Origin: Sphingorhabdus sp.
GTDB taxonomy: Bacteria; Pseudomonadota; Alphaproteobacteria; Sphingomonadales; Sphingomonadaceae
Direction: 5' to 3'
DNA length: 64,000 nucleotides
Assembly (NCBI RefSeq): GCF_029865925.1
Contig: NZ_JARXAI010000064.1
Coordinates: forward strand, 1-64,000
Part shown: piece by piece, positions 20,427 to 22,607 of the stretch
Layout of the letters: each line of letters begins with the position of its first letter
How positions within the stretch are numbered: the stretch's first letter is position 1
Notes under the pieces: model-generated
The model's input: only the letters and a program-made list of their open reading frames with translations
What the model was told of the DNA's origin: nothing
Database searches by the model: none
Translations under genes and position numbers: made by a program

Positions 20427-21669
20427 AGCGCAGCACCTGAACAGGGTCAGTACTCGCAGCCTTGAGCGCCGGGTACAAGGTTGCAAGGAAGCTGAATAGC
20501 AAAGCGAGCCCGCAGATCACGAGCACTTCAACTGGATCAGTCCGGGACGGCAATTCGGTCAGGAATCGGATGGATGGGTCCCACAAATTTTGGCCGGTAA
20601 CGAATTGGATAAAGTTCACAACCGACTGTCTAAAATATAAAAATATTGCGCCGAGTATCAATCCAAGCACAATGCCGGATGATCCGATCAGCAACCCGAC
20701 CGTCATGAAAATCCGAAGCAGTGATTTGCGTGATGCCCCCATTGTCCGCAATATCGCAATGTCGCGGGTTTTTGCGCGCACCAACATGATCAGGGATGAT
20801 AATATGTTGAAGACAGCAACAAGGACGATGATAGACAAAACCACAAACATGGCGACCCGCTCGACCGCTAATGCCTCGAACAGCGAGGCATTCATGCTCT
20901 TCCAGTCGACGATGAGCCCTTTATTCTCAAGCTTCGGCAGCAGCGGAGCGAGAATTTCATTCACTTTGTCGGGATTTTCGGTCTTGATTTCAATCATACC
21001 TATTTCGTCGCCCAGCAGCATAAGCAATTGCGCCCGCTCAATGGGCATGATCACAAATGCTTTGTCATAATCATAAACACCAACCTCAAAAATGGCCGCC
21101 ACTTCGTAGGAAATCTCGCGCGGAACAGTGCCAAAAGGCGTTGTCCGGCCCGCTGGGTTGATTATGGTTATACTTTGACCAACTCTAACACCTAAATTTT
21201 GCGCGAGGCGCGATCCAATCGCTACTTTATCTTCGTCGGGACTAAGCGCATTTAGATCGCCAGCGACGGTCTTTCCCTTAAGCGTTTCATTTTTGAGTAT
21301 GTCGTTGACCGACATGCCACGCGCCAAAATGGCTTCAACGCGGCCATCGAAAGTTGTTAGCAAAGGTTGTTCAATAAGCGCCGTGGCGTCGGTAACGCCG
21401 GGTGTGCTCTTAACGTCCTTCAGTATCTGACGCCAATCCTGCAACCGACCGCCATAGCCTTGCACCACTGCATGCCCGTTCAGCCCAACGATCTTGTCAA
21501 ACAACTCCGCGCGGAAGCCATTCATAACGCTCATCACAATAATCAAAGCGGCTACGCCAAGTGCGACAGCGACAAGGCTTATGCTGGCAACAAGGAAAAT
21601 GAACCCTTCGCCCTTGCCCGGAAGCAAATATCGTCGCGCTACCATGCGTTCATAACGCGACAATATCAT
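20419..21669 (-). CDS. lolC: Lipoprotein-releasing ABC transporter permease LolC/LolE
   Basis: A 416-aa inner-membrane permease with the LolC/E layout: an N-terminal cytoplasmic motif [19 protein letters not shown]1, a large periplasmic domain (about residues 50-270), then three C-terminal helices of the FtsX domain ([51 protein letters not shown]). There is only one permease gene, so the complex is probably a homodimeric LolF-like version. ATG 21669 ([14 protein letters not shown]) is preferred over the long track start at 21753, with ATG 21687 as an alternative. It is the first gene of lolC-lolD-gpx. Confidence 0.9.
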
Positions 21670-21769
21670 GTGCGGACACTCATCCATAATTTCGGCATGG
21701 GGTGTTCTTAGGTTCCGCCAAGAAATCTGGCAAGTATTGTTGCAGCCGGGCAACAGCTTTTGAAAAAAC

Positions 21770-21970
21770 GTTCGAGCCGGTTCGGTAAGAATTGCAAACA
21801 GAGCGGAGAGCTAACAAGGAGGGGTGGAATTCGTCGCGCGTCACTAGTGGCCGATGGTTCAGGGAAAAATCAGTCACGCCGGTGGGGACCGGCAGAGGAC
21901 TGAAATTATGCGCTAGCAAAGCTGCAGAGCGAGGCCGTTCGGAACATCCGAGCGGCCTTGTTTTTATGTT
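21770..21970 (+). ncRNA. Candidate structured small RNA upstream of the Hsp20 gene
   Basis: No protein-coding gene is evident on the plus strand here, yet the stretch ends in a strong terminator. It contains a 6+6 bp hairpin (TCAGTC 21870-21875 with GACTGA 21898-21903; GCCGGT-gggg-ACCGGC inside) and a second hairpin CGCT-AGC-aaa-GCT-AGCG about 21911-21931. The neighbours on either side are read away from it, or from a separate promoter downstream. The 5' end is a guess, as no convincing promoter was found. I do not recognise it as 6S, SRP, tmRNA or RNase P RNA. Confidence 0.4.
21931..21966 (+). terminator. Strong intrinsic terminator of the candidate small RNA
   Basis: AGGCCGTTCGG (21932-21942) pairs along 11 positions (one G-T) with CCGAGCGGCCT (21948-21958) around an AACAT loop, followed by TGTTTTTATG. 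The T-run exists on the plus strand only, so it does not serve the lolC side. It lies upstream of the Hsp20 promoter and cannot be the Hsp20 terminator. Confidence 0.8.
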
Positions 21971-21999: not shown

Positions 22000-22027
22000 C
22001 TTGCAATTTTGCGGATGCAACCCATCT
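22000..22027 (+). promoter_or_regulatory. Heat-shock (RpoH, sigma-32 type) promoter of the Hsp20 gene
   Basis: CTTG at 22000-22003 and CCCATCT at 22021-22027 are separated by 18 bases (counted to CCATCT), matching the RpoH pattern CTTG-N17/18-CCATnT. Transcription would start about 22034, directly before the first leader hairpin. The downstream gene encodes a small heat-shock protein, which supports the call. Confidence 0.65.
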
Positions 22028-22035
22028 TGCTTCTC

Positions 22036-22121
22036 GGAGGCCGAAAGGCTCCAAAACGAACATGTTGGCCGCTGCATTTGTGGGGCTGGCAACGAACCAA
22101 ATTGCTTGAAGGAGAATTTGC
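22036..22121 (+). promoter_or_regulatory. ROSE-like RNA thermometer in the Hsp20 leader
   Basis: The leader folds into three hairpins. The first is GGAG(g)CC-GAAA-GGCTCC at 22036-22052. The second has GTTG(g)CCGC at 22064-22072 pairing with GC(t)GGCAAC at 22085-22093. The third, next to the start codon, hides the Shine-Dalgarno AGGAG: CAAATT (22098-22103) is the exact complement of AATTTG (22115-22120), and TTGCT faces AGGAG around a TGA loop. A UUGCU opposite the SD with a G-G mismatch is the hallmark of ROSE elements, which melt on heating to expose the SD of alphaproteobacterial small heat-shock genes. Confidence 0.7.
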
Positions 22122-22607
22122 ATGAACCGTTTTGATTTTACCCCATATCGCCGGAACACCGTCGGCTTTGACCGTCTTTTTGAGCTGCTTGAAACCACAG
22201 GCCGTTCTGCACAGAATGAAAATTATCCTCCGTTTAACATCGAACGGACCGGCGAAAATGATTATCAGATCACCGTCGCCGTCGCCGGTTTCAAAACCGA
22301 AGAGATAGACATTGTCGCCCAGCAGAACCTGCTTATAGTCACCGGCAGCAAGCAGTCCGAAAGTAATGACAATCGGGACTTTTTGCATATGGGTATTGCA
22401 ACCCGAAATTTCGAACGGCGGTTCCAGCTTGCCGACCACATCCATATCACGAATGCGCATATGGCTGACGGGCTTCTCATTATTACCTTGGTGCGTGAAG
22501 TGCCTGAAGCTTTAAAGCCGCGGAAGATCGCGATTGGTGCGAAAGCTGCACCAACAGTCATTGATCATGAAGACGCGCCCAAGAAAAAAGGAGCGCCTGC
22601 TGCTTAA
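22122..22607 (+). CDS. Small heat-shock protein, Hsp20/IbpA family
   Basis: A 161-aa ATP-independent holdase that binds unfolding proteins in the cytoplasm. The class A N-terminus reads FDFTPYRRNTVGFDRLFELLE. The alpha-crystallin domain covers about residues 35-135 (YPPFNIERTGENDYQITVAV to DGLLIITLVREVPEA), and the tail contains RKIAIG, the C-terminal IxI motif. It stands alone behind an RpoH-type promoter and a ROSE-like thermometer, so both transcription and translation are probably heat-induced. Confidence 0.95.
   Translation: MNRFDFTPYRRNTVGFDRLFELLETTGRSAQNENYPPFNIERTGENDYQITVAVAGFKTEEIDIVAQQNLLIVTGSKQSESNDNRDFLHMGIATRNFERRFQLADHIHITNAHMADGLLIITLVREVPEALKPRKIAIGAKAAPTVIDHEDAPKKKGAPAA

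Follow-up and report, generated by a model that had tools for sequence, protein, structure and literature searches.

A predicted lolC-linked small RNA family in Sphingomonadaceae

Few small RNAs of Sphingomonadaceae seem to have been studied; literature searches led to suhB in Sphingopyxis and to the sRNAs of Zymomonas. The suhB sRNA of Sphingopyxis granuli (RF00519), the subject of experimental work, is 61 nt long and works with Hfq (PMC6563040). The RNA predicted here, in the gap between lolC (lipoprotein export) and hsp20 of Sphingorhabdus sp. (the window, a stretch of 64,000 nucleotides), would likewise be a short trans-encoded sphingomonad sRNA. However, suhB has a C-rich loop and lies at another locus, and its model does not match the present RNA: no suhB match was obtained at the RNA locus, and the best suhB-like match of the genome is on contig C64. 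With 6S RNA (RF00013) the predicted RNA shares a structured nature, a single copy and a similar length, but 6S RNA forms one long closed stem whereas in the present RNA separate hairpins follow one another. The 6S model does not match the RNA locus, and the best 6S match of the genome lies elsewhere. Decoy RNAs of the CsrB/RsmY type also carry several exposed purine-rich motifs per RNA; the motifs of the present RNA, in contrast, consist of G-runs rather than hairpin loops with A(N)GGA. CsrA, which is the best known of the proteins that GGA-bearing RNAs titrate, was found in none of the 21 genomes searched, in which the controls were detected. The ROSE thermosensor (RF00435), like the present RNA a structured element before hsp20, is represented in the window adjacent to the RNA, but there it is part of the hsp20 leader and separate from the RNA.

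Searches against Rfam 15 at the gathering cut-off yielded no match in the window. Relaxed searches with the RNA and with the loci of 12 relatives returned nothing beyond the neighbouring ROSE element and microRNA matches due to chance. The sequence-only reading of this DNA had not recognised a family either, and the Rfam search that it recommended gave none at this locus. No RNA beside lolC in sphingomonads is described in the openly licensed papers searched. The family thus appears to be undescribed in Rfam 15 and in the openly licensed literature searched. Its occurrence in many genera, its fixed address next to an envelope-biogenesis operon and its absence from Rfam 15 point to a new family, a candidate conserved regulator in Sphingomonadaceae. 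A likely 6S RNA was seen outside the window on the same contig (G000:C50:67570-67740), scoring 43.3 bits, just under the cut-off; the 6S matches of several relatives are also just below it.

Architecture of the predicted transcription unit

The features of the locus are collected in Table 1. Direct reading of the sequence places the start of lolC, which encodes a MacB/FtsX-type permease, at position 21669, from where it reads leftward, away from the RNA. The start of hsp20 is at 22122 on the plus strand, 156 bases beyond the T-run of the RNA terminator. No plus-strand gene of an annotated type that could feed this terminator was found upstream of it in the window. The sequence-only reading had made the same point, and the two observations on which it relied, lolC reading away and the hsp20 promoter lying beyond the terminator, are both seen in the sequence.

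Table 1. Features of the lolC-hsp20 gap in the window
Feature	Position	Strand	Sequence and evidence
Inverted repeat	21738-21755		TGTTGC-N6-GCAACA; conserved
Putative -35 element	21792-21797	+	TTGCAA; TTGCAAA invariant in 23/23 genomes; at about the place of the family TGACA
Putative -10 slot	21815-21820	+	weak in the window's species
Predicted sRNA gene, ~140 nt	21826-21966	+	core kept in 22 other Sphingorhabdus genomes
Hairpin P1	21827-21860	+	GAATTC...GGCCGATGGTTC; 95.7-99.5% of cells paired, 23 relatives
Linker	21861-21869	+	AGGGAAAAA (AGGGGGAAAA in many relatives); alignment
Hairpin P2	21870-21903	+	inner stem 98.6% paired
P2 outer stem	21870-21875 / 21898-21903	+	TCAGTC / GACTGA
P2 inner stem	21878-21883 / 21888-21893	+	GCCGGT / ACCGGC
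P2 loop	21884-21887	+	GGGG; predicted unpaired, probability ~1
Hairpin P3	21909-21926	+	94.8% of cells paired
Intrinsic terminator	21932-21965	+	11-bp stem and T-run; 100% of cells paired (10 pairs counted); compensatory change
Terminator stem arms	21932-21942 / 21948-21958	+
Five-T run	21961-21965	+
hsp20 heat-shock-type (RpoH) promoter	22000-22005, N16, 22022-22027	+	CTTGCA, CCATCT; sequence reading
ROSE-like thermosensor in hsp20 leader	22034-22126		27.1 bits; below the RF00435 cut-off of 45

The 5' end of the RNA was deduced from family members, whose promoter sits just upstream of P1. In 36 of 42 family loci TGACA occupies the -35 place, 22-50 nt upstream of P1, compared with a mean of 0.85 and a maximum of 4 in shuffled upstream sequences, and in most loci a TAGCAA-like -10 element follows 17 or 18 bases after TGACA. 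Based on this layout, the RNA start was placed at P1. The window has TTGCAA at the family -35 place and a poor -10. An intergenic position, a promoter of its own, which in the window's genus is putative, and an intrinsic terminator are the marks of an independent sRNA gene; since promoter and terminator are conserved, a separate transcription unit is predicted. Transcription would start near position 21826 and proceed away from lolC, and the transcript would fold into P1, P2 and P3 and end at the terminator, at about position 21966. The start at about 21754 and the length of 150-200 nt proposed in the sequence-only reading are less likely than this start and a length of about 140 nt, given the promoter and P1 layout of the family. 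The hairpins that had been noticed before, GCCGGT-gggg-ACCGGC inside TCAGTC/GACTGA, a second hairpin and an 11-bp terminator with a T-run, lie exactly as described and correspond to P2, P3 and the terminator; P1 had been overlooked.

The segment 21800-21966 folds with -72.1 kcal/mol, compared with -52.8 +/- 3.9 for shuffles (z -5.0). A generic terminator scan did not list the RNA terminator, apparently because of the T-run rule of the scan. The linker after P1 carries an exposed G-run in some relatives; in the window this run is shortened to AGGG. The fifth pair of the P2 outer stem forms in just 2 of the 22 sequences that have letters there. P3 in some relatives is formed in a shifted register, GCGG/CCGC, in which pairing is restored.

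Conservation in Sphingorhabdus and beyond

A BLAST search among 60 relatives, 36 of them congeneric with the window's genome and 24 from other genera, revealed homologs of the RNA region in 22 of the former and in none of the latter. In all 23 Sphingorhabdus loci, including that of the window, the RNA lies between lolC and hsp20, followed by pyrG. A core of about 140 bases is conserved above its immediate flanks, and conservation stops at the terminator. Of the 14 same-genus genomes that BLAST did not match, eight have, in the same position, a version that is clearly related but more diverged, and one has a reduced remnant; in four (L065, L066, L067 and L069) the RNA is absent and the lolC-hsp20 gap measures just about 240-250 bases. 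The RNA is therefore dispensable in at least part of this GTDB genus. Within the Sphingorhabdus alignment P1, P2, P3 and the terminator are paired in 95.5% of cells versus 18-47% in registers slid by 1-3 columns. Sequence variation in this alignment is limited. Double changes that preserve pairing occur in the P2 inner stem, where G-C is replaced by A-U in four relatives, and also in the terminator. Loss of the hairpins in relatives had been named beforehand as an observation that would speak against an sRNA; they are kept across the 23 loci.

In other genera a signature, ATGGCC(G/A)TGGTTC(A/G)GGG, was recognised upstream of lolC. There, too, the RNA begins with a P1-type hairpin; after the signature come, in order, a variable hairpin, AAGGGGGC, a short GACGA/TCGTC hairpin whose small loop is of the GNRA type in many members, and a terminator. 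The clade of the window has a signature longer by one base, GTGGCCGATGGTTCAGGG; in L054-L057, other species of the window's GTDB genus, the family form is present. The first model, R1, matched beyond the genus mostly terminators after genes, and for this reason a second model, R2, was made from aligned lolC-linked homologs, solely from genera other than the window's. At E values up to 1e-5, R2 matched a single copy in each of 95 of 401 Sphingomonadales genomes, which represent 12 genera, all from one family; it matched none of 285 genomes from across the class that lie outside Sphingomonadaceae. The named pairs hold in 98.3% of the cells of the R2 family alignment. Covariation in related genomes, suggested earlier as a check, scored 0.255 versus 0.174 after shuffling, with 20 double-change cells versus 6.3 in shuffles, and of the 13 terminator pairs in other genera 4 vary on both sides.

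lolC lies upstream and reads away from the RNA in all 20 loci fetched with at least about 2 kb of flanking sequence, and it is likewise present and points away in g23-type loci. In several genera about 1.3-1.6 kb separate lolC from the RNA. The one such spacer checked, in L182, contains a class II tRNA synthetase gene, which by its position is proS. The family is read as a single-copy one that stays beside the lolC or the proS-lolC operon. hsp20, in contrast, is an inconstant neighbour: for most of the other genera examined, roughly the first 2 kb downstream of the RNA contain no hsp20. When R2 was applied to 8 kb of the window, its best match fell on the RNA, with 14.6 bits; as chance matches of R2 to terminators alone elsewhere reach 23.7 bits, this score was not used as proof of homology. 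Kinship of the window's diverged version with the family version is suggested instead by its position, the shared motif of 16-17 nt and the bridging species L054-L057.

Two loci of genus g41 found by R1 (L030 and L053) are not the lolC-linked RNA; the true g41 copies adjoin lolC (L062 and L116). L030 and L053 contain a separate structured element with a terminator, a chance find of R1. Pattern matches without lolC (L136-L138 and L141-L144) are mostly chance matches in coding sequence. For the pattern match in L140 no lolC was seen, and the stretch is probably too short to reach it.

Mode of action and alternative explanations

Besides the stems, an exposed G-run is the only feature that recurs in nearly all members. 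At least one run of four or more G with a mean unpaired probability above 0.5 was predicted in 46 of 50 RNAs. Accessible GGGG runs number 1.18 per RNA on average versus 0.20 in mononucleotide shuffles, a lenient control that keeps base composition only. The exposed G-run of the window is the P2 loop; in other genera most sites are AAGGGGGC, ahead of P3, or the linker that follows P1. We take the exposed G-runs as contact sites, most likely for base pairing with C-rich segments in target RNAs. The RNA would then be a trans regulator, and Hfq might assist the pairing of the G-runs in the linker, in the P2 loop and, in other genera, in AAGGGGGC. As expected of a genome with an Hfq-dependent trans-acting sRNA, Hfq is present; its two Sm-like domains lie in one frame of 205 aa (G000:C57:144-575).

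There is little doubt that the locus is an sRNA gene, and the independent sRNA proposed from the sequence alone gains support from the conserved hairpins, the adjacency to lolC, the family promoter, the lack of a kept reading frame and the single copy. We infer the transcription of the RNA, its base pairing with C-rich targets and the help of Hfq. Chances are about even that it acts by antisense pairing. The reading as a whole, an independent, predicted single-copy sRNA of Sphingomonadaceae that acts in trans via G-runs, possibly with Hfq, is probably correct. The same G-runs could make the sRNA a decoy that sequesters either a protein or a small RNA rich in C. Part of the family has repeated exposed G-runs within one RNA, and C-rich sRNAs of the suhB type occur in the same genomes; the absence of CsrA and a predicted RNA-suhB duplex no better than shuffled controls render such a role unlikely. 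Even less likely is a more specific version, in which a decoy of an RNA-binding protein or of C-rich sRNAs couples lipoprotein export, through lolC, to post-transcriptional control.

The orientation of hsp20, the same as that of the RNA, its short distance from the T-run and its place after the RNA in every one of the 23 Sphingorhabdus loci would suit a cis-acting leader that regulates hsp20 through a conditional terminator. This is very improbable, as beyond the terminator hsp20 is preceded by a heat-shock-type promoter of its own and by a ROSE-like leader, and most other genera examined retain the RNA without a nearby hsp20. It is about as improbable, or slightly more so, that the conserved block regulates lolC and hsp20 as DNA, with no RNA made from it. 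This proposal is in line with a conserved palindrome and further blocks found in the stretch from lolC to the RNA, but compensatory changes in the stems, a terminator with a T-run, a promoter before P1 and the end of conservation at the terminator are features of an RNA. The least credible alternative is a small protein encoded from the conserved ATGGCCGTGGTTC, which in many genera reads ATG GCC GTG GTT. Depending on the genus, the next conserved block is offset from this ATG, the only conserved one, into frame 0, 1 or 2; early stops occur frequently, and the Sphingorhabdus clade of the window has no ATG in that position; the lack of a conserved reading frame accords with an independent sRNA gene, the preferred reading.

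The inverted repeat between lolC and the RNA is perhaps a regulator site; a looser version, TGTTGC...CACAG, recurs across the RNA family. On the other side of the RNA, CTTG and CCATCT of the hsp20 promoter are invariant across 23 aligned loci, and the 3' part of the ROSE-like element, AAATTGCTTGAAGGAGAATTT, hardly varies among the 23 aligned relatives.
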